Made by a program: the position numbers and the translations under genes. Shown here in pieces: positions 7,377 through 31,718 of a DNA stretch of 64,000 nt (the first letter of the stretch is position 1; every line of letters starts with the position of its first letter). The stretch covers positions 124,001 through 188,000 of the forward strand of contig JAGYJZ010000002.1 of NCBI GenBank assembly GCA_018401875.1, read 5' to 3'. Source of the stretch: Salibacteraceae bacterium (GTDB taxonomy: Bacteria; Bacteroidota; Bacteroidia; Flavobacteriales_G; Salibacteraceae). The notes beneath the pieces are model-generated. The model did no database searches and was not told where the DNA came from. It saw nothing but the letters and a program-made list of their open reading frames with translations.

Positions 7377-7823
7377 TTATTCTCCGACTACTTCAAATGT
7401 GATGGTTTCAACCACATCTCTGTGGAATGCAACCTCAGCTTCATATTTACCAACTGTCTTAATCGTCTCGCCTTTGATTTTGATATTCTTTCTATCTATT
7501 TCAAAGCCAAGTTTAGTGATTTCGTCAGCCAATTGAATATTGTTTACGGAACCGAAAATCTTTCCAGACTCGCCCACTTTCGCACCTACGGTGATGGTCA
7601 TGTCCTTCATTTTGTCAGCCATTTTCTGCGCGGCTGCTCTAACTTTCTCGATTTTCTTAGCTCTTTGTCGAACTGTTTCAGCGTGCACTTTCTTTGCCGA
7701 TACAGTTGCTAAAATGGCGTGGCCTTGCGGTATAAGAAAATTACGACCGAAACCATCTTTCACTTCCACCAGGTCATCTTTGTAACCTAGCTTCTCAATG
7801 TCTGTTTTTAATATAACTTCCAT
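7377..7823 (-). CDS. rplI: 50S ribosomal protein bL9
   Basis: Large-subunit ribosomal protein that binds 23S rRNA near the L1 stalk. The 148 residues include the N-terminal signature ILKTDIEKLGYKDDLVEVKD with GFGRNFLIPQGHA (about residues 4-37), the connecting alpha-helix, and a C-terminal domain with FGSVNNIQLADEI. It is the third gene of a compact S6-S18-L9 operon, 12 bp after rpsR, and is followed by a terminator. Confidence 0.98.
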   Translation of the reverse strand: MEVILKTDIEKLGYKDDLVEVKDGFGRNFLIPQGHAILATVSAKKVHAETVRQRAKKIEKVRAAAQKMADKMKDMTITVGAKVGESGKIFGSVNNIQLADEITKLGFEIDRKNIKIKGETIKTVGKYEAEVAFHRDVVETITFEVVGE

Positions 7824-7835
7824 GTCGATCTATAA

Positions 7836-8096
7836 TTATTTCATCATATCAGTCACATAAGGCATTAACGCCAAATGCCTTGATCTCTTTACTGCTTGAG
7901 ACACTTTTCTTTGGTACTTCACTGAAGTTCCTGTAATCCTTCTTGGAAGAAGTTTACCTTGTTCGTTTACAAATCGCAACAAGAAATCCGCATCCTTGTA
8001 ATCTACGTATTTGATACCCGCTTTCTTAAACCAGCAAAATTTCTCTTTCTGGGTTTCAATAAGAATCGGGGTTAAATATCTGATATCATCAGCCAT
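7836..8096 (-). CDS. rpsR: 30S ribosomal protein bS18
   Basis: Small-subunit protein that forms a dimer with bS6 on the platform. The 86 residues contain KYVDYKDADFLLRFVNEQGK, the core LPRRITGTSVKYQRKVSQA and the C-terminal RHLALMPYVTD, all diagnostic. It lies between rpsF (11 bp upstream) and rplI in the usual order. Confidence 0.98.
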   Translation of the reverse strand: MADDIRYLTPILIETQKEKFCWFKKAGIKYVDYKDADFLLRFVNEQGKLLPRRITGTSVKYQRKVSQAVKRSRHLALMPYVTDMMK

Positions 8097-8107
8097 CTTT
8101 TCTCTAA

Positions 8108-8455
8108 TTAAGCGTTAGCAGTTTTCTTTGACTTATCTCTTCTACCTTCAGCAAATGCGATGTGGTCTTTATCCATCTTCACGGTCAAGAAACGCATTAT
8201 TCTTTCGTCACGGATAAATTCCGTTTCAAGGGGTCTGATGAATTCAGGGCTAACCTCAAATTCAACCAAATAGTAGAATCCAGTGGACTTTTTCTGGATA
8301 GGATAGGCCAATTTTTTTAGGCCCCAGTTTTCCTCGTGGGTGATTTTAGCACCACCATCTTTGAGGAAAGCCATAAATTTCTTCACTGTTTCCTTTGTCT
8401 GGTCCTCAGACAAAACGGGAGTTAAGATGAAAACAGTTTCATAACGATTTGTCAT
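8108..8455 (-). CDS. rpsF: 30S ribosomal protein bS6
   Basis: First gene of the rpsF-rpsR-rplI operon. The 115 residues open [19 protein letters not shown] and contain [19 protein letters not shown] and the Arg-containing [12 protein letters not shown] of the S6 fold. The C-terminal tail is short and basic (RRDKSKK). A promoter with a good TAnnTTTG box lies just upstream, in the gap shared with the divergent dnaX gene. Confidence 0.98.
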
Positions 8456-8581: not shown

Positions 8582-10417
8582 ATGTCAACGAGTCAAGAAA
8601 AATTTATTGTTTCTGCCAGGAAGTACCGACCTGAAAACTGGAAAGAAGTAATCGGTCAAGGATCGATCACTGAAACTTTGATGAATTCGATCGAACAAGA
8701 CCACATGGCGCATGCTTATTTGTTTTGTGGTCCGAGAGGAGTTGGAAAAACTACGTGCGCTCGAATTTTCGCCAAAGAGATCAACCGAAGTGACGATCAC
8801 AGTGAAGACGAAGATTTCTCATTTAACATATTTGAAATGGATGCCGCGTCAAATAATGGCGTGGATGAAATGCGTTCGTTGACCGACCAAGTGCGCATCC
8901 CACCGCAAGTTGGGAAATACAAAGTCTATATTATTGATGAGGTGCACATGCTTTCAAAACAAGCCTTTAATGCTTTTTTGAAGACTTTAGAAGAACCGCC
9001 AAAGCACGCTATCTTCATTTTAGCTACTACTGAAAAACACAAGGTTATTCCGACCATTCTGAGCCGTTGTCAGATTTATGACTTCAACCGAATTGGCATC
9101 GAAGACATCGTAAATCAACTCAAGAGCATCGCGAAGAAGGAGGACATAAAATACGAAGAAGAAGCGTTGCATGTGGTCGCTCAAAAAGCAGATGGAGCTA
9201 TGCGCGATGCGCTTTCAATCTTTGATCAGCTATCGAGTTTTACAAATGAAAACCTGACGTATGATGCCGTTTTAAAGAACTTACACGTTCTTGATTACGA
9301 ATACTACTTCAAAATCACTGACGCTTTATACCAAGCAGATTTTGCAGATGCTTTGGTCATCCTCGACTCGATATTAAAACAAGGGTTTGACGGCAGTCAC
9401 TTCATAAGTGGGTTGGCCAGCCATTTTAGAGATTTGCTCGTATGCAAAGACCCGCGAACGCTCGGGCTTTTAGAAGTAGGCGATTCGGTGCGTGCAAAAT
9501 ACAATGACCAAGCGCAAAAAATTGAAAGCGAATGGATATTATCGGCTCTTTCTTTGGCAGCTGAGTCCGATTTTAAATTCCGAAACACCAGCAATCAGAG
9601 GCTCCTACTAGAAACTTCATTACTAAGCATTGCCTCGATAGAGCTCGAAAAAAAAAACACTAAACCTGAGGTAAACGTTCTTCGAGCCCCGAGCGAAAAG
9701 AAAAAGCTGGAACCCTTGCCCGAAAAGCAAATGCGTGAGGAAGCAACACTTGATGAACCGTTAAAGGAAGCCATTAAAAATGCAGTTCCAGAAAAAGAAA
9801 CTGAATCATCCACCGCTTCCAGTTCACATCAAGAAGAAATCATTCAACCTGAGGTTCCTTCTAATGGAAAAGTTGAAGAGGCGCCTGTCTCTCCAATTCA
9901 CGAAAATGCAGCTACTTCTCGCAGAACCAAGCGAAAGCCAAGTACAGTCTCGCTCAAGTTAGAAAACACAGTTGAAGAGAAGGCACCTGCCGTGAAGGAT
10001 TTGGTTGAAGAACAGGTGCAATCGATCAAAGCGGAAGAGCCGAGCAGTGATGAAGCTTCATTGGACATCGAATCAGCGTGGAAAAAACTCAGCACAGAAT
10101 CGTTTGACGAAGGCAAAAGCGCCTTGTACAGCATCATGGCAAAGCAAAAGCCAACAGATCAAATGGATGAAAATACGCTGACAATAATTCTTTCACACGA
10201 AGTGGATCAAGAGGAGTTTGTTCAGCACAGCGCAAGCGTTTTGTCGAAGCTGCGTGCATTGATTCAAAACCCAACTTTAGGTCTAAAAATATTGGTTCAA
10301 GAAACAAAACATGAAACCAAATTATTCACAGCTCAAGATAAATTTGAATATTTAGCCGGTCAAAATCCTACATTGAGGAAACTGAAACAGGATCTAGACC
10401 TTGATATTTCACATTAA
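8582..10417 (+). CDS. dnaX: DNA polymerase III subunit gamma/tau (clamp loader)
   Basis: AAA+ ATPase of the replicative clamp loader, 611 residues. N-terminal motifs: RPENWKEVIGQ, Walker A GPRGVGKTTCAR (about residues 50-61), Walker B YIIDEVHMLS, sensor 1 region FILATTEKHKV and SRC arginine finger region. The zinc-binding cysteine cluster usual between Walker A and B is replaced by an acidic stretch (SDDHSEDEDFSFNIF), which I believe is common in flavobacterial DnaX. A long Glu/Pro/Lys-rich linker (about 365-490) leads to a C-terminal tau-like domain. The gene is divergent from rpsF and 16 bp ahead of the M16 peptidase. Confidence 0.95.
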   Translation: MSTSQEKFIVSARKYRPENWKEVIGQGSITETLMNSIEQDHMAHAYLFCGPRGVGKTTCARIFAKEINRSDDHSEDEDFSFNIFEMDAASNNGVDEMRSLTDQVRIPPQVGKYKVYIIDEVHMLSKQAFNAFLKTLEEPPKHAIFILATTEKHKVIPTILSRCQIYDFNRIGIEDIVNQLKSIAKKEDIKYEEEALHVVAQKADGAMRDALSIFDQLSSFTNENLTYDAVLKNLHVLDYEYYFKITDALYQADFADALVILDSILKQGFDGSHFISGLASHFRDLLVCKDPRTLGLLEVGDSVRAKYNDQAQKIESEWILSALSLAAESDFKFRNTSNQRLLLETSLLSIASIELEKKNTKPEVNVLRAPSEKKKLEPLPEKQMREEATLDEPLKEAIKNAVPEKETESSTASSSHQEEIIQPEVPSNGKVEEAPVSPIHENAATSRRTKRKPSTVSLKLENTVEEKAPAVKDLVEEQVQSIKAEEPSSDEASLDIESAWKKLSTESFDEGKSALYSIMAKQKPTDQMDENTLTIILSHEVDQEEFVQHSASVLSKLRALIQNPTLGLKILVQETKHETKLFTAQDKFEYLAGQNPTLRKLKQDLDLDISH

Positions 10418-18853: not shown

Positions 18854-19264
18854 ATGAAGAAGAACATGCGAAAAACGAGAAGTTTAGACCTGAAAAGCAC
18901 AGTCTCATTTATGTTTCTATGTTTGTCTATCATGATGCTTTCATGCACACAACAGTCTAGTCTACCCGACCCATTGGAAGCGGGATGGAACGGAGATGAT
19001 ATTTGTGTAGTTCTCGAAGAAAATGAAATGATTCGTTCATTGAAATGTACTTTTCCGCCTGGAATTGGACACGAACGTCACTACCACAGCGCACATTTCG
19101 GGTACACGCTGCAAGGGAGTAAATTTCAAATTACTGACACAAACGGAACCAAAGAAATTGATGTGCCTACAGGAAGCAGTTTCTATAACGAACATATTGA
19201 ATGGCACGAAGTTTTGAACATTGGAACTGACACCGCTGTCTTTTTAATCATAGAACCGAAGTAA
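18854..19264 (+). CDS. Cupin-domain lipoprotein
   Basis: 136 residues. The lipoprotein signal ends IMMLSC (Cys at about 31); the start could also be the ATG four codons on (18866). The rest is one cupin barrel: GHERHYHSAHFGYTLQGS is the first cupin motif with metal-binding His residues, and the second motif carries FYNEHIEWHEVLNIG. Small envelope cupins are often metal-binding, but the substrate here is unknown. Confidence 0.7.
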   Translation: MKKNMRKTRSLDLKSTVSFMFLCLSIMMLSCTQQSSLPDPLEAGWNGDDICVVLEENEMIRSLKCTFPPGIGHERHYHSAHFGYTLQGSKFQITDTNGTKEIDVPTGSSFYNEHIEWHEVLNIGTDTAVFLIIEPK

Positions 19265-19332
19265 AAAATCACCAATTGAGTTGGAGAAGTGCACTTCGCC
19301 TTGTCAGAAAGAAAAAGTAATTTGCCAACCAA

Positions 19333-20094
19333 ATGGAAAAATCAGATCGAAAAATAGGCTTAGCGCTTGGCGGAGGAGCAGTGCTGGGCGCGGCACACGT
19401 TGGAGTGTTGAAAGCCGTGCATGAATCGGGCATCAAAATCGATTACATCGCAGGGACGAGCATTGGAGCGTTTGTGGGAGCGTTCTTCGCCTTCGGAAAG
19501 TCGTGCGATGAAATTGAAGAAATCGCATTGAAACTGAACTGGATTGACATTGCAGAACTCTCTTTGTCGCGGTATGGGTTGTTGTCAAACGAAAAAATGG
19601 GTAAACTTTTGCATCAACACATCGGTAATGCAAAAATCGAAGAGAGCGACATCCCACTAGCAATGGTTGCTACCGATGCGGCAAGTGGAGAAAAAGTAGT
19701 AATAAACAGTGGCTCAGTTACTGATGGAATAAAGGCAAGCACCTGTATTCCAGGAATTTTCAATCCCATCGAAATCGATGAAAAAATGTTGCTTGATGGC
19801 GGAATTGTGGAAAATGTACCCATACAAACGGTGCGAAACATGGGCGCTGATTATGTTATTGGTGTTGACCTAAACGCCCAATTCAAATATGAAAAACCTC
19901 AACACATATTTGATGTATTGTTGAACAGTTTTCATTTCACTATGCTCACTTCGTCAAGACTGCAATCCAGGGAAGCCGACCTATTGATAAAGCCCAACCT
20001 TTCTAACTACAGCAGATCAAATATGGACCATTTGAAGGATTTAATGCAGCAAGGCTATGATGATGCTAAAAAGGCCCTTGAAGACTTCGAGTAA
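19333..20094 (+). CDS. Patatin-like phospholipase, RssA type
   Basis: 253-residue serine hydrolase. Oxyanion hole GGGAVLGAAHVGVL (about 13-26), nucleophile elbow GTSIGA (Ser at about 43) and catalytic Asp in DGGIVENVP (about 156-164) are all present, so the Ser-Asp dyad is intact. No signal peptide, so it is probably cytosolic and acts on membrane lipids. It is followed 33 bp later by the YdcF-like gene. Confidence 0.88.
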   Translation: MEKSDRKIGLALGGGAVLGAAHVGVLKAVHESGIKIDYIAGTSIGAFVGAFFAFGKSCDEIEEIALKLNWIDIAELSLSRYGLLSNEKMGKLLHQHIGNAKIEESDIPLAMVATDAASGEKVVINSGSVTDGIKASTCIPGIFNPIEIDEKMLLDGGIVENVPIQTVRNMGADYVIGVDLNAQFKYEKPQHIFDVLLNSFHFTMLTSSRLQSREADLLIKPNLSNYSRSNMDHLKDLMQQGYDDAKKALEDFE

Positions 20095-20127
20095 TTTGTT
20101 TCTGAGATTCGATTAAAGGAAAACACG

Positions 20128-20832
20128 TTGAATAATAAATCTAAAAAACTGGCACTCATTGGGAAATTCGTAAAACGGGTTCTGATCGCAGTTGGAATAG
20201 TGTTTAGCTTAATGATCGTCTTAGCCTTCACCGATCTTCCTTTTTATGCCTATGCTGATTTAGGCACGGTAGAATCAAACTACACACAATCGCCCGAAAC
20301 AATCATTTTATTGGGAGGAGAAGGAATGCCAAGTGCTGATGGATTAATGCGCTGTTACATCACTGCCGAAAAAGCACTCTACTATACTGAAACAGAAATT
20401 GTCATTGCGTTGCCGAAAAATCCCGGTGAGAAAAATCCGATGGTAGCTTCAGAACTCATGGCCAAAGAATTAATAATGCGAGGAGTAGAGGCAACACGCA
20501 TACATTTTGAATCGACTGGAACGAATACCCACGAGCAAGCGCAAATTTTATCACAAAAACTACAACAATCCAAACGACTATTGATCGTAACTTCTCCTGA
20601 ACACATGACACGAGCCGTGGCTTGCTTTTATGCTGAAGGATTCGAATTTGTGGGCGGATCTCCAGCATTTGAATTCGACCTAAATCCCGAAAGTTTAAAG
20701 AATAACAAGAATGAATTGTTCGCACCTAGTTTAGCATGGCGTTATAACTTGTGGAGTTATTTACAATATGAAATTCGGGTTGGCCGAGAATACACTGCAC
20801 TGGCGTATTACAAACTAAGAGGTTGGATATGA
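20128..20832 (+). CDS. YdcF/SanA/ElyC-type DUF218 protein
   Basis: 234 residues. One N-terminal span (about 16-36) is followed by a DUF218 Rossmann-like domain: ETIILLGGEGMPSADGL, ASELMAKELIMRGVEATRI, the conserved ESTGTNTHEQA and LLIVTSPEHMTRA. Related proteins (SanA, ElyC) affect envelope integrity and peptidoglycan precursor metabolism. The start appears to be TTG at 20128, preceded by AAAGGA, a rare Shine-Dalgarno-like site here; no in-frame ATG exists before the span. Confidence 0.78.
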   Translation: MNNKSKKLALIGKFVKRVLIAVGIVFSLMIVLAFTDLPFYAYADLGTVESNYTQSPETIILLGGEGMPSADGLMRCYITAEKALYYTETEIVIALPKNPGEKNPMVASELMAKELIMRGVEATRIHFESTGTNTHEQAQILSQKLQQSKRLLIVTSPEHMTRAVACFYAEGFEFVGGSPAFEFDLNPESLKNNKNELFAPSLAWRYNLWSYLQYEIRVGREYTALAYYKLRGWI

Positions 20833-20884
20833 ACCAATTTAAACATTGACCATGGATGCGTTGTTACTTATTGAAACAACTATA

Positions 20885-21496
20885 ATGAAACCCACCACCA
20901 TCGCAATCCTCGTTGCGGGAATTCTTTTAATCGTCTTTATAATCTTACAAGCATTCGTGAGCAACTCAACCACCAAAACGGAAACAATTTCATACCAAGT
21001 ACTGAAAGAATACAAAGACTTTGAAATCCGTCTCTATCCAGACGTCAATTTCTCGGTTGTAACCATGCCAAAAAAATCATATAAAGAAGTTTCAGGTTCG
21101 GGATTCAGAGTGCTGGCCAGTTATATTTTTGGTGGAAACGAAGACAAGAAATCCATCGCAATGACTACACCGGTATCGATGGAAATGGGCGACACCATGC
21201 GCATGAAATTCATGATTCCTGAAGCTTATGAAATCAAAGATTTGCCCAAACCAAACGACAGTACTATTCAATTCGAAACTCAATCACAACGCATTCTAGC
21301 GGCACTGCGTTTTGGAGGATGGGCCAATGATGAAAAACTGGCTGAAAAACAGCAAGAATTGAGCGATCTTTTGGCGAAAGAAGGAATCAAGCACACGGGC
21401 AAGTTCACCTTCCTCGGCTATAATCCTCCGTTTGAGGTGATAAACAGGCGAAATGAAATGACGGTAGAAGTGGTCGATTACGTCATCGAAAATTAA
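20885..21496 (+). CDS. SOUL haem-binding family protein
   Basis: With the ATG at 20885 the protein is 203 residues; earlier in-frame TTG (20846) and ATG (20852) would add polar residues before the span. An N-terminal anchor (about 5-22) is followed by a SOUL/HBP domain: YKDFEIRLYPDVNFSVV, GSGFRVLASYIFGGN, SIAMTTPVSME, LRFGGWANDEK and FTFLGYNPP. Family members bind haem or are haem-pathway associated; activity here is unknown. Its last 96 bp are the left part of a direct repeat whose second copy is a SOUL remnant at 26.9 kb. Confidence 0.85.
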   Translation: MKPTTIAILVAGILLIVFIILQAFVSNSTTKTETISYQVLKEYKDFEIRLYPDVNFSVVTMPKKSYKEVSGSGFRVLASYIFGGNEDKKSIAMTTPVSMEMGDTMRMKFMIPEAYEIKDLPKPNDSTIQFETQSQRILAALRFGGWANDEKLAEKQQELSDLLAKEGIKHTGKFTFLGYNPPFEVINRRNEMTVEVVDYVIEN

Positions 21497-21594
21497 ACGC
21501 GCTAGAAGTATTTCATCAAGAACGAGATCAGCTTTTGCTTCCAATTGGCACAAGGCGGACTGAGAATCTCGAGGCTACTTGTCATTTTTTGACC
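21401..21594 (+). repeat. Left copy of the SOUL-3'/ALDH-3' junction repeat
   Basis: These 194 nt align over their whole length with 26881-27075, in the same orientation, including the short spacer between two convergent stop codons. The left part is the end of the intact SOUL gene; the right part is a stump of an aldehyde dehydrogenase. The encoded peptides are strongly conserved (about 20 of the 24 residues in KFTF...MTVE and 21 of 30 dehydrogenase residues), while silent positions differ, so the duplication is old. Confidence 0.8.
21502..21594 (-). pseudogene. 3' stump of an aldehyde dehydrogenase paralogue
   Basis: Read on the minus strand this is 30 codons plus TAG, ending LISFLMKYF and containing ILSPP. 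The complete aldehyde dehydrogenase at 26983-28431 ends with FLSPP and the identical LISFLMKYF; 21 of 30 residues agree. Nothing upstream of the 31st codon resembles the enzyme; instead the DNA passes straight into a REP-like hairpin and a decayed transposase. It cannot encode an enzyme. Confidence 0.8.
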
Positions 21595-21602
21595 CGCTCT
21601 CG

Positions 21603-21617
21603 CGGACTTGCAGTCCG
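21603..21617. repeat. REP-like hairpin
   Basis: CGGACT-TGC-AGTCCG, a perfect 6-bp stem with a three-base loop, flanked by GCTCTCG and TGCGCC. It lies 6 bp from the end of the transposase remnant and 8 bp from the dehydrogenase stump. Position and form fit a REP element recognised by a REP-associated tyrosine transposase. Confidence 0.6.
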
Positions 21618-21623
21618 TGCGCC

Positions 21624-21764
21624 TCACCTTATCGTCTTCCACCTTCTTGATATCAATTCTATATCCATGAGAGCACTTCGCTCGGCATAATTCCTAGCTG
21701 AGCTATACATGTAATCTTAAGGAAACTCAACCAATCCATCTTTCACTGGATTTTGATGGAGGCA
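21624..21764 (-). pseudogene. Remnant of a REP-associated tyrosine transposase (RAYT, Y1 family)
   Basis: On the minus strand the DNA reads HQNPVKDGLVEFP, then an in-frame TAA, then DYMYSSARNYAERSALMDIELI and a closing TGA. This is the C-terminal region of RAYT/TnpA_REP proteins, whose usual form is HxNPVxxGLVxxPEDYxYSSA. The catalytic HuH and Tyr parts are missing and the stop breaks the frame, so it is dead. It is the only transposase trace I found in the window. Confidence 0.75.
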
Positions 21765-21863
21765 ACCAACACCACCACACCCTAAAATGTTAATTTCAAG
21801 TACTTTGCAATTTTTTAAATTATCTTGTGCTACAATCTACACAACTAAACCTACTTTCTAGCT

Positions 21864-22772
21864 ATGAAAAAAATGTTGTTTCTTTTGATATTACTGGTTT
21901 GCGTGGAGCTTTCTTGGGCGCAAGAACCTTTAACTGTGAATGCTGGATCTGACACAAATTTTTGTGGAAGTTTAGAACTTCAAAATGAATTTACACCCTT
22001 TCATTTGAATGCAAGTGTTGAGGGGGGCACACCTCCTTATGAAATCGAATGGACAATGCTGAATCCCGTTTTCTTTGACGGACAATACTGGGATGAACAC
22101 CATTTTCTCGATTCGAATTCCGTTTTGAATCCATTGGTAAAGACGAATATGGTTTTGTCTAATAATGTTTACCATGATGCACCTGTTTTAAAATTTGCTC
22201 TGACAGCTACAGATAGTACCGGAATCTCAGTCTCCGACTCTGTCAAAGTGTCGAGCAGTTATTTTACTTGGTCACTGTCGAATTTGTTCAAAATAATCTA
22301 TCAAGGGGATTCTGCGATCTTGTTTGAACCTAATATCTGGGGTGGTATACCGCCTTTGAAATATCATTGGGAGCCATCCGAAAACATGTCTGACAGTACT
22401 TCGATCACACCAACTGTGCTAACCTTAGAAACGGTCAATTATAATGTGACAATTACTGATGCAGAGGGTTGCTCGGAAGTCGAATTCGGAAGCCACAACA
22501 CTATTTACGTCATACCAACAGGGGTAGATGAACCTGTAGTACGGGAAGGTGAGGATTGCATTCAGGTTGTTGAGCGTGAACTATTACTAAAAGCAGGTTG
22601 CGAGCATTCTAACGAAGGGTTTGAGCTCAACATCTTCAATATTAGCGGAGCCAAGGTGTTACGCACCGACTTTGAACGTTCAATTGCTATTTCCATGTTG
22701 CCCTCGGGGGCGTATGTCGTTCGTTTATCAAACTCAAACCACGTTTACACCAAAAAAATCGTACTACCATGA
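21864..22772 (+). CDS. Exported protein with PKD-like domains and T9SS type A sorting domain
   Basis: 302 residues. A signal peptide (ends SWAQ, about residue 20) is followed by two beta-sandwich segments resembling PKD/SprB-repeat modules (GGTPPYEIEW at about 54 and GGIPPLKYHWEPSENM at about 164). The C-terminal sorting-like domain has LNIFNISGAKVL, LPSGAYVVRLSN and TKKIVLP. Likely exported by the type IX system. The last four bases ATGA overlap the start of the subtilisin gene, so the two are translationally coupled. The 367-bp gap upstream holds the dehydrogenase stump, REP hairpin and RAYT remnant. Confidence 0.75.
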   Translation: MKKMLFLLILLVCVELSWAQEPLTVNAGSDTNFCGSLELQNEFTPFHLNASVEGGTPPYEIEWTMLNPVFFDGQYWDEHHFLDSNSVLNPLVKTNMVLSNNVYHDAPVLKFALTATDSTGISVSDSVKVSSSYFTWSLSNLFKIIYQGDSAILFEPNIWGGIPPLKYHWEPSENMSDSTSITPTVLTLETVNYNVTITDAEGCSEVEFGSHNTIYVIPTGVDEPVVREGEDCIQVVERELLLKAGCEHSNEGFELNIFNISGAKVLRTDFERSIAISMLPSGAYVVRLSNSNHVYTKKIVLP

Positions 22773-24388
22773 GAACTTTTACTGTCATAATCATCATTTG
22801 CTTCCTATTGAGCCAGAATGGATTATCACAACACCCCGATGCCACAGTGTCGGACACGGCCATGTGGTTAAAAATTGAACCTGAAGCACTAAATACGGAT
22901 GGCTCTTTCAAGAACATTACAATTGATTCAATTTTCACTGGTTTGGATAGCCAGAGGGTCAGACCTGTATTTGATTTCATTGACAATCCATATTACAACA
23001 GTTTTTATTCTATCAGCTTTCCCTCAACAAACGTTGATTCGCTCAAATCGATTATAGAGCTATTGGACAGCAACGTAAAGGTTGTTCTACTTGAGTATGA
23101 CGAAGCCAAGCCCATGCATGACCCAAGTGATTATTTCTGGAGCCAAACAACTGGGGTGAGTGGGCCATACCACTGGGCACTCAAGCGAATTGACGCTGAA
23201 TATGCTTGGGATATTACCAAGGGTAGTCCCGACATTAAAATTGCCATTTTGGACACGGACTTTGACGTTACCCATCCTGACCTCGCTTCAAAAATATCAC
23301 CCTACAACGATCCTTGGTCGGGTATCCCCCTGGGTTCGGATTTCCACGGAACTGCAGTTGCTGGCCATGCTGCTGCAGAAACAGCGGAAAACGGAGCTAC
23401 CGCTGACGGGAACTATGCATCCATTGGTTTCAAGACAAAGCTTATCTGCTATCATGGTGCGGTTCAAGGAGCAGGGGAAAGAGCAAACTATATGGCAAGA
23501 GTGCTGCATGCAGCAACCGTAATGGATGCAGATATTATTACTTCATCAATACACCGAGGTTGTAATATCCCGAATGATCCAATAATAGCCGATCTCGAAG
23601 AAAGAATTGTGCAAGACGTATTAGACATGGGAATCCCAATAGTTTATCCGTCTGGTAATGGTTATCAGGGCTCCAATTGCGGTAGTTCGGCTAACGGTTG
23701 GGAGCCGATCTATCCCTTTCATCCAGATTATGATGAACGAGTTATCATTGTTGGAGGAACCACTAAAGATGATAACCATTACTTTGAGGAGGGAAGCACT
23801 ATTAAAACACATTCAGACTTTCCTCAAATAGACCTATGTGCCCCTTCCTATGAAATGTTTCACTGCACACCATATGATAATGGTCAGAATCCGTTTCCAT
23901 ATGTAACTGGAGGTCATGGCACTTCATTTGCTGCACCGATGGTGGCTGGTACTGTAGCTCTACTCATGGCCCTAAACCCATGTCTTACTCCAGCAGCCAT
24001 TCAAGATATTTTAATATCAACAACAGATCCAATTGTGGATGCCTCGAGTTACACTTTCAATGGCGTCAGTCATGTTGGTACAGGAAGAGTCAATGCTTAT
24101 GCAGCCGTTCAAGCTGTGTCTAGTTATGGTACAAGTCAAGCACCTATTAGCACTTCTTCTTTATGGAATGATAGAAGGTTTTTTTCGCAGGATGTAATTG
24201 TAAATAGCGGTAGCACCCTAACACTCGGCAGCAGCGCAGAATTATGGTTCAGTGAAGGAAATAGGCACATTGTAGAAAAAGGTGCTAAGCTCATTATCGA
24301 TGGAGCGCGGCTCACAAGCAGATGCTTATGGGGTGGAATCGAGATAGAAGGAGATGGCACAGAAAGTCAGTATTATTCAGGAACATAA
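22769..24388 (+). CDS. Subtilisin-like (S8) serine protease, N-terminal part of a gene split by an in-frame stop
   Basis: 539 residues to a TAA at 24386-24388. Signal peptide to about residue 21, propeptide-like region to about 125, then a peptidase S8 domain with the full triad: Asp162 in AILDTDFD, His193 in FHGTAVAGH, Ser386 in GHGTSFAAPMVAG, plus oxyanion Asn297 in PSGNG. After residue 450 the chain enters a region with LWGGIEIEGDGT, which begins a right-handed beta-helix. The same frame continues past the TAA without another stop to 26812. This product alone would be a catalytically complete protease without the T9SS tail, so it would probably stay in the periplasm. Confidence 0.85.
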   Translation: MRTFTVIIIICFLLSQNGLSQHPDATVSDTAMWLKIEPEALNTDGSFKNITIDSIFTGLDSQRVRPVFDFIDNPYYNSFYSISFPSTNVDSLKSIIELLDSNVKVVLLEYDEAKPMHDPSDYFWSQTTGVSGPYHWALKRIDAEYAWDITKGSPDIKIAILDTDFDVTHPDLASKISPYNDPWSGIPLGSDFHGTAVAGHAAAETAENGATADGNYASIGFKTKLICYHGAVQGAGERANYMARVLHAATVMDADIITSSIHRGCNIPNDPIIADLEERIVQDVLDMGIPIVYPSGNGYQGSNCGSSANGWEPIYPFHPDYDERVIIVGGTTKDDNHYFEEGSTIKTHSDFPQIDLCAPSYEMFHCTPYDNGQNPFPYVTGGHGTSFAAPMVAGTVALLMALNPCLTPAAIQDILISTTDPIVDASSYTFNGVSHVGTGRVNAYAAVQAVSSYGTSQAPISTSSLWNDRRFFSQDVIVNSGSTLTLGSSAELWFSEGNRHIVEKGAKLIIDGARLTSRCLWGGIEIEGDGTESQYYSGT

Positions 24389-24451
24389 AATCCCGATCAA
24401 GGCATTATAGAAATAATAAATGATGCTGTTATTGAGCAAGCGAATTATGGC

Positions 24452-26812
24452 GTGTATGTAAAATCGGGAGGTATTCTAAAAGTTACTGATGCTACTTTCA
24501 GAAACAATTACAGAGGCGTGCATTTTGCTCCTTACGTTTTTAACATTCCAAACACACAGGCATTTGCACCCAATCTTTCGCGTTTTAAAAATTCAACATT
24601 CATCACCGATGACGAAATTGGCCCACACCAAGCTCAAGAATATCACCTTGGAATGAGCTATGTTCATGGTATACAAATAAATGGATGCACATTCGAAAAC
24701 ACTAGACCAGTAGATACTTATGAAAGAGGCATTGGTATTTCTGCTCAAGCTTCTGGATACAATGTCACTGGTATTTGCTCTGCCATCACACAAGGAACTT
24801 GCCCTACTCAGTTTCTGCAAAAATCAAGATTTGAGGGTCTCGAATACGGTATATCGCACTTAGACTGGGGAGGCATACCATTTAAACCCGATGTAAGAGA
24901 TACTGAATTTAAATGCCGATACGGTATGTATGTCTCAGGTGATGATTATACTAAAGTAGCAAGATGTGATTTCGATTTATCTGATGGATATACGCTTGAG
25001 TCAAATCCAGAGCGCTATGGCCTTTATTTAGACGGATGCTCCAAGTACAGCATCTATGACAACGATTTTTCAAATGGTGAGGAGCCAAGTTCAGAATTAA
25101 CCGTGGGTATTATTGTAAATAATAGTGGCCCAGAACACAACTCTGTATTGGGTAATAGGTTTACAGCACTATATCATGGTATTGAAGCCTTGGGCAACAA
25201 CGTTGGTCAATATGCAACAACCGAAGGTTTTCAGTTTTATTGCAACGAATTTTCATCTACACGACATGATGTGCTTGTTCATTGTGGAACTTCATTTGGC
25301 GGACAACCTATCGAACCTGCGCCCTGTGGCATCGGATCATATATCGGAGTCTCTCATCCTTCATCCATCATTCAGCCTGCAGGTAATGAATTTACACATA
25401 GTTGTAGTTCTCAGAAGGCATATTTTGATGTGATTGATGATTTTATGCCCTGTCAATACGATATACTCAATCAGTCGCAGAATCATATCACCTATTTCCA
25501 TCACGACCCAGCGCAAAATGCAAATGTTGAACCATTGTATAATCCGTCTCAACCCATTTCTCTGGTTAACACCTCAACCGTTTGGGGCTCATGTGCGGTT
25601 AAAATTCCAGGTTCGTATCCTGTTGAACAACATGCTCGCGAATCAGGCTCAGGAATTATAGGTGTTCCAGGAGAAACTGATCTACGGTCTTCCTTACAAA
25701 GTGCTAATTCAAACCTAGCTACTTTAGAGCAAAACTATTCTAGTAAACTTGATAACGGAAACACAACTCAAATGCTAAGTGATGCCATTGCATTAACCTC
25801 GCAAAATGCAAGTGCGTTTCATGCTAACTTGATGAACCTAGCTCCGTTTGTCTCTAATGATGTGGTCGTTGCATTAATAGAAAATGAATCAAATTATTCA
25901 GAAACATACCTTCTTCAATTACTCGATAGCAACTCTAGTTCTATGCACAATTTAGAAGTAATTGAAGCATTGAACAATCGTACAACTCGACTATCAACCT
26001 CAGACATAGAAGACCTTACAGAAAAAGATTTGTTAACCCTAGATGAAAGAGAAGAGCTCGAATCTGGAATGGCACATTACAGGTCAATTCAAAAGGTTGC
26101 GGTAAATAATCTTGTAAGTATATTCTTAAGCGATACGGTGGATTATGACCAAACGATGGATAGTGTAATTGCACTATTGGGGCGTCAAAATTGTCCTTTA
26201 CAACAGTTTACGTTGGCCGAATTGCAAATGATGCATGGAAGTAATTCTGACGCAGCAAGTGCACTTGCTGTTTCTCAAACTATGAATCTTTCTGAATATC
26301 TCGATAATTATCATGATGACTTAGAAGACTGGTTTCAAATATTATCTGACACTTCCCTCAGTTTTGAAGACACGCTAACGACCGCACAATTAAGCGCCAT
26401 AACCACATTGTATAATTCATCTCAATCATATCGGGTCATGGCTTATACACGAGCAATAATGATGGCCTTTGGAGAAGAAGAATATTCTGAACCAGTTTAT
26501 TTTATTAATTCTGAAAATCCTGCAAAAGGTAGTACTGAATCAAAAAATGAAGATTTGATTCCGACAGATGAATTGCAGATGTATCCAAACCCTGTAGATG
26601 GTTTTATTACATTCCAGTTCAATGGACGAAAAAACATCTCTTTATCTCAGTATGAGTTCATAAATGTCATGGGGCAAACCATTGCAAAGGGTTCTATGAA
26701 AAGTGGGTCGAATGTTTATACATTGGCAATTGATCTTCCAGTTGGAGTGTATCATGCGGTAGTCACACTTTCAAATCAAGAAAAGATCATACGACCTTTT
26801 GTAGTAAACTAA
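24452..26812 (+). CDS. C-terminal part of the split S8 protease: beta-helix, helical region and T9SS sorting domain
   Basis: The frame is open from 24389, directly after the TAA that ends the protease half; GTG at 24452 is only the first possible start, and there is no signal peptide. From 24389 the translation reads NPDQGIIEIINDAVIEQANYGVYV, a natural continuation of the beta-helix begun upstream. Repeats of beta-helix type run to about residue 380, then a mostly helical segment (about 410-690), then a type A sorting domain with MYPNPVDG, INVMGQTI and LPVGVYHAVV. Without readthrough this half would not be exported. Best viewed as the second half of one gene, 22769-26812 (1,348 codons including stops). 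Confidence 0.75.
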   Translation: MYVKSGGILKVTDATFRNNYRGVHFAPYVFNIPNTQAFAPNLSRFKNSTFITDDEIGPHQAQEYHLGMSYVHGIQINGCTFENTRPVDTYERGIGISAQASGYNVTGICSAITQGTCPTQFLQKSRFEGLEYGISHLDWGGIPFKPDVRDTEFKCRYGMYVSGDDYTKVARCDFDLSDGYTLESNPERYGLYLDGCSKYSIYDNDFSNGEEPSSELTVGIIVNNSGPEHNSVLGNRFTALYHGIEALGNNVGQYATTEGFQFYCNEFSSTRHDVLVHCGTSFGGQPIEPAPCGIGSYIGVSHPSSIIQPAGNEFTHSCSSQKAYFDVIDDFMPCQYDILNQSQNHITYFHHDPAQNANVEPLYNPSQPISLVNTSTVWGSCAVKIPGSYPVEQHARESGSGIIGVPGETDLRSSLQSANSNLATLEQNYSSKLDNGNTTQMLSDAIALTSQNASAFHANLMNLAPFVSNDVVVALIENESNYSETYLLQLLDSNSSSMHNLEVIEALNNRTTRLSTSDIEDLTEKDLLTLDEREELESGMAHYRSIQKVAVNNLVSIFLSDTVDYDQTMDSVIALLGRQNCPLQQFTLAELQMMHGSNSDAASALAVSQTMNLSEYLDNYHDDLEDWFQILSDTSLSFEDTLTTAQLSAITTLYNSSQSYRVMAYTRAIMMAFGEEEYSEPVYFINSENPAKGSTESKNEDLIPTDELQMYPNPVDGFITFQFNGRKNISLSQYEFINVMGQTIAKGSMKSGSNVYTLAIDLPVGVYHAVVTLSNQEKIIRPFVVN

Positions 26813-26835
26813 GCACCTAAAGCTCATTCTTCTTT

Positions 26836-26970
26836 CAGTATGGTATCCGCTACCACGTGCTTCACAGCCTGTTGGAAGAGAAATTCACCTTCTTAGGCTA
26901 CAATCCACCCTACCAAATGACCAACCGAAGGAATGAGATGACGGTTGAACTGGTCAACAATAGGGGTTGA
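26836..26970 (+). pseudogene. 3' remnant of a SOUL-family gene
   Basis: 44 codons plus TGA. From 26881 the peptide KFTFLGYNPPYQMTNRRNEM closely follows the end of the intact SOUL protein (KFTFLGYNPPFEVINRRNEM); the preceding 15 codons are only weakly similar. No start or haem-binding part is present. Together with the adjoining complete dehydrogenase it forms the right-hand copy of the junction repeat. Confidence 0.78.
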
Positions 26971-27075
26971 TGCTTATTCAGTTTAAAAGTATTTCATGAG
27001 GAAGGAAATCAGCTTCTGCTTGCCACTTGTATATGGTGGACTGAGAAACCCCAATCCACTCTTCATCTTCTGGTC
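26881..27075 (+). repeat. Right copy of the SOUL-3'/ALDH-3' junction repeat
   Basis: 195 nt matching 21401-21594 in direct orientation. Here the SOUL side is a remnant and the dehydrogenase side is the end of the complete gene, the mirror situation of the left copy. The start points are 5,480 bp apart. Confidence 0.8.
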
Positions 27076-28431
27076 CATTATAGCACGTTGATTCGAAAAT
27101 TCCATAAAACCATAATGCCCTCTAGATTTACCGATACCACTGTTATTCACTCCTCCAAAGGGAAGATTCGAGTTTCCGATGTGTGCAGCTGAAATATTGA
27201 TTCCTACACCTCCAGAAGTAGTGTGATCGAGAAAATACGCGATGTTTTTCTTGCTTTTGCTGTAAACATAAAGTGCAAGTGGCTTTTCTTTCGATAGAAT
27301 TAAATCTACCGCTTCTTCCTTGTGTTCGAACGTCAAAATTGGTAAAATAGGCCCAAAAATCTCCTGCTTCATCATCTCACTTTCCAGCGGCACATGCTCG
27401 ATTAGGGTCGGTGAAATTATGCGATCAGTAGTGTTTGAAACTCCGCTGTAAATAACGTTTGCCCCTCCATCAACAGCGCTTTTGATCATATTCGACAGGC
27501 GGTCGAAATGCCTTTGATTGATAATGCTCGCCAGATCGTTAGAGTCTGCCGGCTGCGCGCCATAATTCTTCTCGATTCGTGTAATCATCTTCTCTATAAA
27601 AGCATCCTTTTGGGAGGCATGAATAAGCACGTAATCTGGCGCAATGCACGTTTGTCCAGCATTGATAAACTTCGCCCACGCAATGCGCGAAACCGCAGCG
27701 TTTAAATCGGCCGTTTCATCAATAATAGTAGGTGATTTACCCCCCAACTCGAGCGTTACACTCGTTAAATGCTTCGCGGCAGCAGCCATCACCACTTTGC
27801 CAATCTCGGGCGAACCGGTGAAAAATATATGATCAAACTTCAATTTCAATAATTCTGTAGAGACGTCTACCCCACCTTCAACAATGGCAACTTCATTCGC
27901 ATCAAAACATTCATCAATGATTTGTTTCATTACTTTCAGCGTGTGTGGCCTAGATTCAGAAGGTTTCAACACTGCCGTGCAGCCGGCAGCAATGGCCGAC
28001 ACCAATGGCGCAAAAAGAAGGTGAAACGGATAATTCCAAGGCGAAATAATGAGCGATGTGCCTTTCGGTTCAACGCGAATATTTGACTTCGCGCCAAACA
28101 AACTGATCGGAGTGGCCACTGGCTCGTCTCTCATCCAGTCTGGCAGATTCTTTATGGCAAATCGAATTTCCAATAAAACAGGATAAATTTCAGTGAGGTC
28201 AACCTCTGTGGACGACTTTCTAAAATCGCGCCACATGCCTTCACAAATTTCATCGCGGTATTTGAGGATGGATTGTTCTAACCTCCTCAGCTTGACCTTT
28301 CTTTCTGCGGAATTGGATAACGCAATTTTCCTAGACTTCGATTTATGTTCGTTAAAGCGCTCCGAAATACTCGACTCACCTTCGCCAAACTTCTTCTTAT
28401 CTGTTTCAATCATATTCTTTTGTGGGATCAA
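26983..28431 (-). CDS. NAD(P)-dependent aldehyde dehydrogenase
   Basis: 482-residue member of the ALDH superfamily, which oxidises aldehydes to acids. Seen: [22 protein letters not shown] (cofactor and substrate entry, about 131), [12 protein letters not shown], catalytic Glu in TLELGGKSP (about 229-237), catalytic Cys in [12 protein letters not shown] (about 266), EIFGPILPI and the C-terminal [16 protein letters not shown]. The form without an N-terminal extension and with a hydrophobic tail (ISFLMKYF) is like the fatty-aldehyde/class 3 subgroup. It is divergent from the VF530 gene. Confidence 0.93.
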
Positions 28432-28553
28432 TATTAAGTCAAGATAACACTATAAGTAAGATTTATGTTCTGATGCCAAAAGGTTGCTCAAAATCAAAAA
28501 CCAGTGCATCCATTCAAATCAACCCTACCTTTGGCTTCAGTTATCCAAACTCA

Positions 28554-28778
28554 ATGGCGGCAAACCCACAACCCAAAAATCCTCTTCACGGCATCAAACT
28601 GGCAGATATCGTAGAATATTTAGTGGCTGAATATGGCTGGGAAGAATTGGGAGCGCGCATCAATATTCGATGTTTTAACGAGAACCCTTCTGTAAAATCA
28701 AGTCTAACTTTCTTAAGACGGACACCTTGGGCGCGAGAAAAAGTAGAACGCCTTTATTTGAATACAATCCCGCGATAA
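28554..28778 (+). CDS. VF530-type DNA-binding protein (DUF2132)
   Basis: 74 residues from the ATG at 28554. The frame is open further upstream, but the VF530 family is about 70-75 residues long and begins near NPLHG, so I chose the short form; ATG 28473 is the alternative and would add a Lys/Ser-rich head. Signature: [47 protein letters not shown]. Small helical protein reported to bind DNA; role unknown. It is followed 40 bp later by rluF. Confidence 0.8.
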
Positions 28779-28818
28779 AACAATACTTTCAGCGCAAATT
28801 CGCACAGCGTTCAAATTC

Positions 28819-29721
28819 ATGAGCACCAACGACAAAGTAGGCACACGCATCAATAAATACCTCAGCGAAATCGGTTTTTGCTCTCGCAGAGAAGCCGACC
28901 GCATGATTGAACACGGCAGAGTCACGCTCAATGGCAGAAAACCTGTAATTGGTGATAAGGTGGGAAGGCGCGACAAGGTGCATGTAGATGGCCACTTGGT
29001 TTCTGAAAACGCAGAAGACGATATCTACCTTGTTTTCAATAAACCAACCGGAATCGTAACCACCACCGACACCGCTGGCGAACGGGACAACATCATTGAC
29101 TATATCAACTACCCAAAGCGCATTTTTCCAATTGGCAGGTTAGACAAAGCCAGCGAAGGATTGATTTTCATGACCAATAATGGCGACATCGTCAATAAAA
29201 TTTTACGCGCCCACAACAATCACGAAAAGGAATACGAAGTAAGCGTTGATAAACCCATTACAGCTGACTTCATTCAAAAGATGGGCAATGGAGTGCCGAT
29301 AATGGGCACCATGACACGAAAATGCAAGGTGGAGCAAACCAGTCCTTTTAGTTTTAGAATCATATTGACACAAGGCCTGAATCGCCAAATTAGAAGAATG
29401 TGCGAGCACTTTGGCTACGAAGTGCAAAAGTTGAAACGCACGCGGATCATGAATATTAAGTTGGATGTTCCGTCAGGTCAATTTCGCGATTTTACTGAAA
29501 CTGAGCTCAGTGAATTACACCTGCTTTTAGCAGAATCAAGTAAAACGCAAAAGCCGAGTCCAAATCCACCTAAAAAACAAGCTTCACAACCAAAGCGGCC
29601 GACTCAAAGCGCGAAGAAAAAACCAAAACCAACCGGAAAACCACGTCCACATGTGAAGTCAAGCTCGAAAAATCCTAAGTCTAAGTTGAGAAACACCTCG
29701 GGTGGTCGTAAACGAAAGTAG
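28819..29721 (+). CDS. rluF: 23S rRNA pseudouridine synthase, RluF/RluB type
   Basis: Isomerises a uridine of 23S rRNA. The 300 residues hold an N-terminal S4 RNA-binding domain ([21 protein letters not shown], about 8-28), the catalytic motif [18 protein letters not shown] with Asp at about 114, and the C-terminal catalytic segment [17 protein letters not shown]. The pattern fits RluF (target U2604 in E. coli) better than RluB. The last 60 residues are a Lys/Pro/Ser-rich basic tail of a kind often seen in Bacteroidota homologues, probably a non-specific RNA contact. Confidence 0.88.
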
Positions 29722-29724
29722 CGT

Positions 29725-30276
29725 TTAAAAAACAGGATTAAAGCCCTCAGGATTACCGGCCGTCTTGTTGGCAAAAAAGGCTTCGAACACTTTTTTGTCT
29801 TCCTGCCAATTTCCGGTCGGATAAAACGGAGGATGCGTTGTAAATTCCTTTTTTGCGTAATCGATGCCGTGCATCACGATAGGCAGCCCGGTATCAATCG
29901 CGACATAATAGAACCCTGTTTTCCATTTATCTACGCGTTTGCGCGTGCCTTCAGGAGTAAAGACAATTTGAAGTTTCTTACCTGATTTAAGCATCGCTTT
30001 AAGTCGGTCTGTGAGGTCTGTTTTTTCATTTCGATTAACAGGAATTCCACCCGTCCATCTAAAAAACCATCCAATCCCCGGCTTAAAAAATGAATCCTTA
30101 ATCAGGTAACGCGCCTTGAGCTTGTAAACATTGCGCGCTAAAATACCCCACACGAAATCCCAGTTGCTGGTATGCGGAGCGACTACGATGATGCAATTTC
30201 TAAGATCATCTTCATACAACCCTTTCACCTTCCACCCGAACAGCGCCAAAAACCACTTTGAAACGAATGCTTTCAT
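29725..30276 (-). CDS. 1-acyl-glycerol-3-phosphate acyltransferase-like protein (PlsC family)
   Basis: 183 residues from the ATG at 30276; a longer frame from 30381 overlaps the helicase gene and adds a Cys-rich head without support. The acyltransferase motif HTSNWD (HX4D, about residue 33), the substrate motif GGIPVNR and FTPEGTRKR (about 105) are all present. The family transfers an acyl chain to lysophosphatidate or related lipids on the cytoplasmic membrane face. The small size is typical of the Bacteroidota subgroup, whose exact acceptor is not known. It is 17 bp after the RecD-like gene. Confidence 0.82.
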   Translation of the reverse strand: MKAFVSKWFLALFGWKVKGLYEDDLRNCIIVVAPHTSNWDFVWGILARNVYKLKARYLIKDSFFKPGIGWFFRWTGGIPVNRNEKTDLTDRLKAMLKSGKKLQIVFTPEGTRKRVDKWKTGFYYVAIDTGLPIVMHGIDYAKKEFTTHPPFYPTGNWQEDKKVFEAFFANKTAGNPEGFNPVF

Positions 30277-30293
30277 AACACAATAATGCAAGT

Positions 30294-31718
30294 TTAAGTT
30301 GGTAAGGTAACAACAAGTTCTGAATGAAAGTTGATTAAATATACATGAGACGTTGCCCGCGTAATTGCTGTATAGAGCCATCTGAAGTATGATCGATCAA
30401 GCATTTCCTCTTTAAAATAACCTTGATAAATGAGCACATTTTTCCACTGTCCGCCCTGCGACTTATGACATGTAATCGCATACGCATGCTTCACCTGCAC
30501 GGCATGAAAATATGGATTTTGAAAAAACTTTTCGTAGGCTTCATCCTCAGCAATTTCGCCTGAATCGATCAGATCATTTCGAAGTTTCAGAATCTCTTTA
30601 CTCGGTAATGATGGCCCCTCAAAATCTAAGGCATTCAGCATAAGTATCAGATCAAAAGACGTGTCGGGATCATCAGAAAAATAGACCTGCGCCTCAGCAA
30701 ATCGAAACGACCCAAATTCGCGAATGGAATGCACTCGCTCTACCGTTACCATGTCGCCATTAGCGAGAAAGTTTTGTCGCTTTCCGGGTAATTTCCAGTG
30801 GTAATTGTTCTTTACAATCATCAACCGATCGCCTGCTTCTAATTCACTTTCGCGCATCAATATGCGCGCTCTAATCTGTTGGTTAAACTGGTTGGCATCT
30901 TTATTTGACCGGCAAATGATTACGCTTTGGTGTGCTGCATCACCGTAAAAAAACTGAGAAAGACGATCCTCCAAATCATACGGGTCAACAGACGAAACAT
31001 CTTCGTGAGGAGATTCTTTTAATTGAAGCACTGTAAAATCTCCATGTGAAATTTGTGTTCTTATTTCTGTCGCGTTCTTTAAGATCAATGATTCGAGCTG
31101 CTGGCGCACAACGTGGGTCAACACGCAGCCAAAAACGGATGAATGCGTGATGGACGCCAACCGCTTTTTATCGAGCGCAGGACTCAAATCCATACCAACG
31201 GGCGGCAACTGCGCGTCATCGCCAATTAATATCAACCTGCAGCGCTCGCCAGAATAAACGAAGGCAAATAGATCTTCGAGCAGCGATCGAGCAGCCATTC
31301 CGTCTTCAGAATTCGCTTCGCCAATCATGGAGGCTTCGTCAACTATAAAAATGGTTTTTCCTGATTTGTTCTGCAGCAATTGCAATTGAGGCTTACCGTT
31401 TTCATTCTCCTTTACCGCGTAAATTCTTCTATGAATAGTCGATGCAGGATAACCCGAATGCGAGGCGAGCACTTTTGCCGACCGCCCAGTGGGAGCCATC
31501 AAAACAGTTTTGCGATTCACTTGATGAAACCAACGAATCAAACCGCCCATCAGCGTGGTCTTTCCTGTACCCGCATAACCGCGCAGTATAAACACTGATT
31601 GAGGACCACCGAAGAACAAAAACTCATACACTGACTTCAACGCAGCAATTTGATCTTCTTTCAATTGGACGTCAATCAACTCCGAAACCTCCTCAATAAA
31701 TGCACTTTCCTGCTTCAT
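30294..31718 (-). CDS. RecD-like superfamily 1 helicase
   Basis: 474 residues with Walker A GYAGTGKTTL (about 47-56), motif Ia APTGRSAKVL, Walker B IFIVDEASMIGE (about 128-139), motif III LILIGDDAQLPPVG, and the C-terminal UvrD/RecD-type motif YAITCHKSQGGQWKN. This is the short RecD2-like helicase common in Bacteroidota, without the N-terminal extension of E. coli RecD. Likely 5'-3' DNA translocase in repair; not shown for this group. It is divergent from the 31821 gene. Confidence 0.83.
   Translation of the reverse strand: MKQESAFIEEVSELIDVQLKEDQIAALKSVYEFLFFGGPQSVFILRGYAGTGKTTLMGGLIRWFHQVNRKTVLMAPTGRSAKVLASHSGYPASTIHRRIYAVKENENGKPQLQLLQNKSGKTIFIVDEASMIGEANSEDGMAARSLLEDLFAFVYSGERCRLILIGDDAQLPPVGMDLSPALDKKRLASITHSSVFGCVLTHVVRQQLESLILKNATEIRTQISHGDFTVLQLKESPHEDVSSVDPYDLEDRLSQFFYGDAAHQSVIICRSNKDANQFNQQIRARILMRESELEAGDRLMIVKNNYHWKLPGKRQNFLANGDMVTVERVHSIREFGSFRFAEAQVYFSDDPDTSFDLILMLNALDFEGPSLPSKEILKLRNDLIDSGEIAEDEAYEKFFQNPYFHAVQVKHAYAITCHKSQGGQWKNVLIYQGYFKEEMLDRSYFRWLYTAITRATSHVYLINFHSELVVTLPT

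Follow-up and report, generated by a model that had tools for sequence, protein, structure and literature searches.

How did the 3' ends of two convergent genes come to stand twice, in the same orientation, around genes that are unrelated to them? This question is raised by a stretch of 64,000 nucleotides from Salibacteraceae bacterium (assembly GCA_018401875.1, contig JAGYJZ010000002.1, positions 124,001 to 188,000, forward strand), hereafter the window, which corresponds to C12:124001-188000 of the genome designated G000 (C numbers are contigs and L numbers are fetched loci). Here the junction of a SOUL heme-binding family gene and an aldehyde dehydrogenase (ALDH) gene lies on both sides of an island that carries two genes with sorting domains of the type IX secretion system (T9SS), gene 1 and gene 2. 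We consider the locus most likely an ordinary kind of genome rearrangement that is unusually legible here. We prefer, with a probability of about 0.45, an account in which a divergent allele that carried the island was imported through homology-facilitated illegitimate recombination (HFIR). The G000 draft assembly has 2,621,890 bases in 36 contigs and is 82.1% complete; it was compared with 12 congeners (a genus panel of 13 with G000 itself) and with 34 other genomes of the family (35 with G000).

Two junction copies in direct orientation

The left junction copy (21401..21591) and the right one (26881..27072) were delimited by repeat comparison. On the left, an intact SOUL gene, SOUL_L (20846..21496, + strand; PF04832, E 5.7e-45), faces ALDH_L (21502..21591, - strand), a stump of 29 codons and a TAG stop whose peptide aligns with the C-terminus of the right-hand ALDH and with those of the congeners G011 and G006. 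On the right, SOUL_R is a 3' remnant of 29 codons and a TGA stop (26881..26970, +), and it faces an intact aldehyde dehydrogenase, ALDH_R (26983..28431, -; PF00171, E 8.6e-91). The repeat finder paired 21401-21475 with 26881-26955 and 21503-21591 with 26984-27072, each ungapped and 73% identical, so that 120 of the 164 ungapped positions match in total (∼73%). When the right-hand tails were slid along the + strand of the window, the left copy scored 65/89 and 55/75, and the runner-up places 42/89 and 36/75. ALDH_L and SOUL_R both keep an open frame up to their stops, with no internal stop. The gap from stop to stop is 5 nt on the left and 12 nt on the right.

A first-pass annotation of the window had described a SOUL/ALDH junction occurring twice in the same orientation around T9SS cargo, with an intact SOUL gene and a dehydrogenase stump on the left and a SOUL 3' remnant and an intact dehydrogenase on the right; coordinates and Pfam matches bear this out on both sides. 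It had also listed the nearly equal length of the copies as a feature, which carries no information because each copy's own truncation bounds the shared stretch. Its proposal that the repeats could still recombine and delete the island finds poor support. Repeats usually need some 20 identical bases or more to recombine; the two copies share no exact match longer than 11 nt, which makes deletion of the island by this route unlikely now.

An empty site in a congener

The same annotation had suggested looking among relatives for an empty site, and one is present in G011 (locus L062), a member of the same genus. SOUL and ALDH stand there tail to tail at a single junction, with their stops 12 nt apart. 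The order in G011 is cupin, methyltransferase, patatin, DUF218, SOUL, ALDH, VF530 and S4 pseudouridine synthase, and the window keeps this order except for the methyltransferase gene, which lies between cupin and patatin in G011. Similarity to G011 is 72% for cupin, 79% for patatin, 73% for DUF218 and 68% for SOUL on the left of the island, and 71% for ALDH on the right.

Among the congeners this neighbourhood was found in G011 and G006 only. In G006 (L063), DUF218 directly faces ALDH, and SOUL lies elsewhere, before cupin. SOUL matches (E <=1e-5) occur in 11 of the 12 congeners, one in each and never two, with none in G002, a genome that is 78% complete; G000 alone has two, one of them the remnant. 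A close ALDH (E 1e-100 cut-off) was found in 2/12 congeners. Among the 41 fetched ALDH loci, a set to which the window does not belong, SOUL stands beside ALDH in one, that of G011; 28 of these loci are only 3.0-4.4 kb long, so that a SOUL gene lying farther away, as in G006, would escape detection.

The genes of the locus, compared between 18854-31718 of the window and the loci L062 and L063, do not all give the same distances among G000, G011 and G006. By residues, the S4 pseudouridine synthase, acyltransferase and helicase join G011 with G006; cupin, barely, and DUF218 place G000 nearest to G011, and ALDH gives nearly a three-way tie (0.71, 0.69, 0.69). At fourfold sites G011 and G006 are the closest pair in 6 of the 7 genes, with SOUL as the exception. 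Recombination within the locus may lie behind these differences, and so may uneven rates or a shared composition. Two minor features of the congener loci were also seen: the patatin of G011 (L062:11562-12316) matches as two pieces with a one-base overlap, as if frameshifted, and within L063:6708-9016 of G006 the part at about 7750-8150 resembles, by eye, a degenerate version of the methyltransferase gene, which G011 has intact.

Ancestry and age of the truncated tails

The residues of the SOUL tails set the remnant beside G011. SOUL_R and G011 agree at 25/26 residues, the left and right tails at 20/26, and the left tail and G011 at 19/26, that is, with 7 residues different. The tail of a further congener, G003, is intermediate (22/26 with the right, 21/26 with the left), and of the 11 congener tails read only that of G011 has the motif YQMT of the SOUL_R tail. 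The ALDH tails, compared over 30 codons (29 and the stop), behave alike: right and G011 agree at 27, left and G011 at 23, left and right at 22. The 12-nt spacing of the stops, too, is common to the right copy and G011, the left copy having 5 nt. In an approximately unbiased (AU) test on the SOUL tail residues with five rows, the grouping of left with right was rejected (p 0.009), and in a SOUL protein tree that included the remnant, right and G011 joined with an ultrafast bootstrap of 95, with left just outside. On this peptide evidence the right remnant appears to group with G011 and the left copy to be the outsider, a real but modest lean given the 25-54 residues available.

SOUL_R, reduced to its last codons, could hardly work as a SOUL protein. 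Its tail differs from that of G011 by 1 residue and by 15 silent codons; being so close in residues and so far apart at silent positions, it was probably cut recently and was probably part of a whole gene until then. If SOUL_R had gathered 8 codon changes of its own while dead, the chance of at most one residue change would be ∼0.0004, and for 5 changes 0.016, where these numbers of changes are assumed and three quarters of random changes are taken to alter the residue. The changes that can be assigned to one tail (residue, silent) are 0 and 2 for the right, 1 and 5 for G011, and 5 and 3 for the left, counts that are small as direct evidence on timing. For ALDH, the stump has 6 residue changes of its own, the right copy 2 and G011 1; since the living left SOUL tail also has 5, the 6 of the stump may show only that the left copy belongs to an outside lineage, and not an earlier cut. 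Decay in this direction speaks against two histories: a target duplication made at insertion, and a duplication in which the inner halves were dead from early on. The underlying logic, by which a recent cut is read from a dead remnant that is better conserved than the living copy, can be reused at other loci that have half genes at their edges.

The left edge of the island and its second copy

The left edge of the island is not random, for it coincides with a repetitive extragenic palindrome (REP) that forms the end of a truncated REP-associated tyrosine transposase (RAYT) element. The ALDH homology ends at 21591-21594 and the REP starts at 21592-21596, within ∼5 nt. The palindrome with about 175 bp of the truncated, IS200-like element occupies 21592..21770, abutting the ALDH stump, and is followed by the upstream region of gene 1 (21771..21863, +). 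The REP has 6 matches with <=3 mismatches in the whole G000 genome, 4 of them exact, and the reversed control gave 0. At the right edge no REP was found; 68 nt (26813..26880) separate gene 2 from SOUL_R there, with no further copy in G000 or in the fetched loci.

The segment 21592-22033 recurs at C12:36278-36720, 109 kb away, in the same direction and with 93% identity. At this second place, site B, the start is again the REP edge, and the flanking DNA is unrelated. In full (L083:8279-9394 = G000:C12:36278-37393), site B carries the truncated REP/RAYT, then a second copy of the gene 1 upstream region that continues for roughly 57 codons into gene 1, and finally a full RAYT. Between the window and site B there are 32 differences in the first 303 aligned positions and 0 in the last 140 (Fisher p 4.4e-6); the last 140 nt before the RAYT are exactly the window sequence and the preceding part is ∼90% identical, from which it follows that part of the segment was copied or converted recently. 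The full RAYT (∼36.7-37.4 kb of C12) encodes a 169-aa protein that scores 110.4 bits against NF047646 (cut-off 80) and matches PF01797, and it is bounded by exact inverted REPs at C12:36728 (+) and 37360 (-). Neither the REP/RAYT end of the island on the left nor the further genomic copy of that edge had been noticed in the first-pass annotation.

RAYT matches (E <=1e-10) were found in 2 of the 13 genus genomes, G000 and G005. G005 has three such places: a full RAYT between inverted variant palindromes (L111), a partial one with variant palindromes nearby (L113), and a more distant one (36% identity) without palindromes (L112). The full RAYT of L111 is 76% identical in protein.

In the available portion of PMC2817692, RAYT elements are described with GT(A/G)G heads beside the REP palindromes. 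Site B resembles such elements in that its full copy passes NF047646 and has inverted REPs, with a truncated relative at the left edge of the island. It differs in that no GT(A/G)G head was seen by eye at its REP ends and in that REPs are not numerous, the 4 exact copies of G000 standing against 37 to 427 in Stenotrophomonas and 9 in a Citrobacter row of the table there. RAYTs could also move neighbouring host genes, with the island as a REP-ended passenger segment. This idea, which we regard as doubtful, is prompted by two unrelated places in the genome (inside an ALDH gene at 21592, and at C12:36278) where the REP-to-gene 1 segment sets out from the same REP edge, and by the site B segment running to the inverted REP of the full RAYT. 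RAYTs are usually discussed for REPs alone; if this part were true, they would be carriers of genes, here of genes for secreted proteins.

A proposed import of a divergent allele and competing histories

HFIR is a defined process that is called rare or low-frequency (PMC3240628, in its available text). Applied to this locus, the ancestral arrangement would have been that of G011, with SOUL and ALDH convergent at one junction. A segment from a related, unsampled lineage would then have replaced the left part of the locus, bringing its own SOUL gene (now SOUL_L), an ALDH 3' stump cut at the REP/RAYT end and the two T9SS cargo genes; the ALDH gene of the donor segment would already have been cut by the REP-ended insertion. 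The left join would have formed by homology, at or upstream of SOUL, and the right join without homology, within the resident SOUL gene, of which the last 29 codons stayed beside the resident ALDH. Several observations are consistent with these steps. As expected of a foreign segment, G011 has the empty site, and the beta-helix half of gene 2, which has matches in 7 genomes of other genera, was not found in the 12 congeners apart from a sorting-tail match in G006. The right join has no homology and has lost resident sequence, SOUL_R lacking its first part and 26813-26880 having no second copy in G000 or the fetched loci. The first-pass annotation had offered two histories, a tandem duplication and a recombination between divergent homologues; the peptide grouping of the right remnant with G011, together with the absence of a second SOUL match in the 12 congeners, leads us to lean towards the latter. 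The interpretation given in that annotation is supported in part.

A number of results weigh against the import. SOUL_L is a divergent allele in the syntenic place, but to its left there is no clear break in similarity to G011 and no crossover point is visible. No donor was found, the nearest SOUL among the 34 other family genomes being that of G011 at 68%. In AU tests, the grouping of left with right was not rejected for the amino acids of both tails (p 0.074) nor for nucleotides (p 0.12 and 0.28). At fourfold sites left and right are alike at 6/12, right and G011 at 1/15, and left and G011 at 1/12. This silent-site likeness may be partly a matter of composition: third positions are G or C at 15/25 and 18/29 in the left tails, at 16/25 and 17/29 in the right tails, and at 10/25 and 12/29 in G011, which lowers the weight of silent-site sharing as evidence for a duplication. 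Equal composition would also fit two copies that have long shared one genome. The silent sites do not decide how the junction copies group.

A close competitor, which we rate somewhat below the import, is an old tandem SOUL-ALDH pair, duplicated before the split from G011 and kept under selection in both copies, which recently lost its inner halves when a REP-ended island inserted in ALDH_L and a deletion reached into SOUL_R. Like a tandem duplication with internal deletion, the locus has paralogous ends in direct orientation with unrelated genes between them, and genes, order and direction are alike on both sides. This history needs no unseen donor, agrees with the frames that remain open to the stop in ALDH_L and SOUL_R, and explains the sharing at fourfold sites and in third-position composition better. 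What it lacks is a relative with the two-pair intermediate: none of the 12 congeners has a second SOUL match, and SOUL stands beside ALDH in a single fetched ALDH locus. It would have to assume that the pair, which has been seen in no other genome, survived for a long time and was lost in G011, and that both an insertion and a deletion took place.

An insertion of the island into a single junction, with a target duplication of ∼194 bp whose copies diverged later, would also give direct copies around an insert and leave G011 with one junction, and we hold it to be very improbable. After such an insertion the dead copy should decay, and here it is the dead SOUL_R tail that has stayed conserved, nearer to G011 than the living SOUL_L; moreover, IS200/IS605 elements make no larger target duplications, as far as the available text of PMC2817692 states, and a REP end is present at the left edge with no REP at the right. 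Somewhat less remote, though still improbable, is an assembly chimera joining the versions of the locus from two strains. A draft genome of this completeness in 36 contigs invites the suspicion, as does the 140-nt perfect repeat in gene 1 that recurs at C12:36 kb. Both outer flanks nevertheless keep the G011 order, the methyltransferase gene aside, the right join showed no repeat that could mislead an assembler, and a crossing of the 140-nt repeats, both on one contig and in direct orientation, would be expected to split off a 109-kb circle.

Returning to the import of a divergent allele, HFIR has been proposed in nature for the displacement of effector modules of the type VI secretion system (T6SS) in Vibrio, including displaced 3' ends, again as rare or low-frequency (PMC5361080). 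The present locus is similar to what is described there in having a homology join on one side only and a resident 3' end stranded downstream of the cargo. It is different in that SOUL is the displaced gene, the cargo belongs to the T9SS and an ALDH stump cut by a REP lies on the donor side, and in that neither a donor nor a left crossover was seen. Among literature pairing HFIR or REP-associated tyrosine transposase with Bacteroidetes, no title, judged as a title alone, concerns this kind of locus. The interest of the locus is that it offers a readable case in which genes for secreted proteins may have entered a conserved place without an integrase, the ingredients being a divergent allele to anchor the segment, a free join opposite it, and a stranded 3' end as witness. 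As for site-specific integration, no integrase domain was found in the three main open reading frames (ORFs) between the junctions, smaller ORFs not having been scanned, and this route was set aside.

Cargo genes of the island

Gene 1 (21864..22772, +) encodes 302 aa with a T9SS type A sorting domain (PF18962, TIGR04183). Gene 2 has a frame of 22769-26812 with a single in-frame TAA at 24386. Its first part (22769..24388, +) contains an S8, subtilisin-like peptidase domain (PF00082, E 2e-23); the rest in the same frame (24389..26812, +) has a beta-helix-like region just below the Pfam cut-off and a T9SS type A sorting domain, which is located behind the stop. TIGR04183 passes the NCBI cut-off twice, once in gene 1 and once in the part of gene 2 downstream of the stop. 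The first-pass annotation had counted two T9SS genes; the sorting domains agree with this, whereas gene 2 turns out to be interrupted. The stop of gene 1 and the start of gene 2 overlap as ATGA (22769-22772), which suggests that the two genes are on one transcript.

The congener search of gene 2 covered its beta-helix and sorting half, the S8 half not being searched. This half is absent from the 12 congeners (E <=1e-5) except for a weak match of the sorting tail in G006, and its relatives outside the genus are in 7 family genomes, G000 itself matching as well (35 searched, E <=1e-6). The frames at the 14 listed beta-helix matches span 835-1742 codons with no internal stop. Judged by this distribution, at least the beta-helix half was either gained by the lineage of the window or lost in the others. 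Carriage on plasmids was considered too and dropped, the beta-helix part having no match among 72,556 plasmid records.

Composition gives no mark of foreignness, because the GC content of island windows (0.38-0.45) falls inside the range of the surroundings (0.37-0.48); within gene 2, GC at third codon positions drops to 0.29 in the second part. For gene 1, weak partial matches turned up in 4/12 congeners, with matches also at three further places in G000, two of them adjacent on contig C35. These two paralogues (L084:7608-8516 and 9417-10346) have 302 and 309 aa, with the Pfam sorting domain in the first only.

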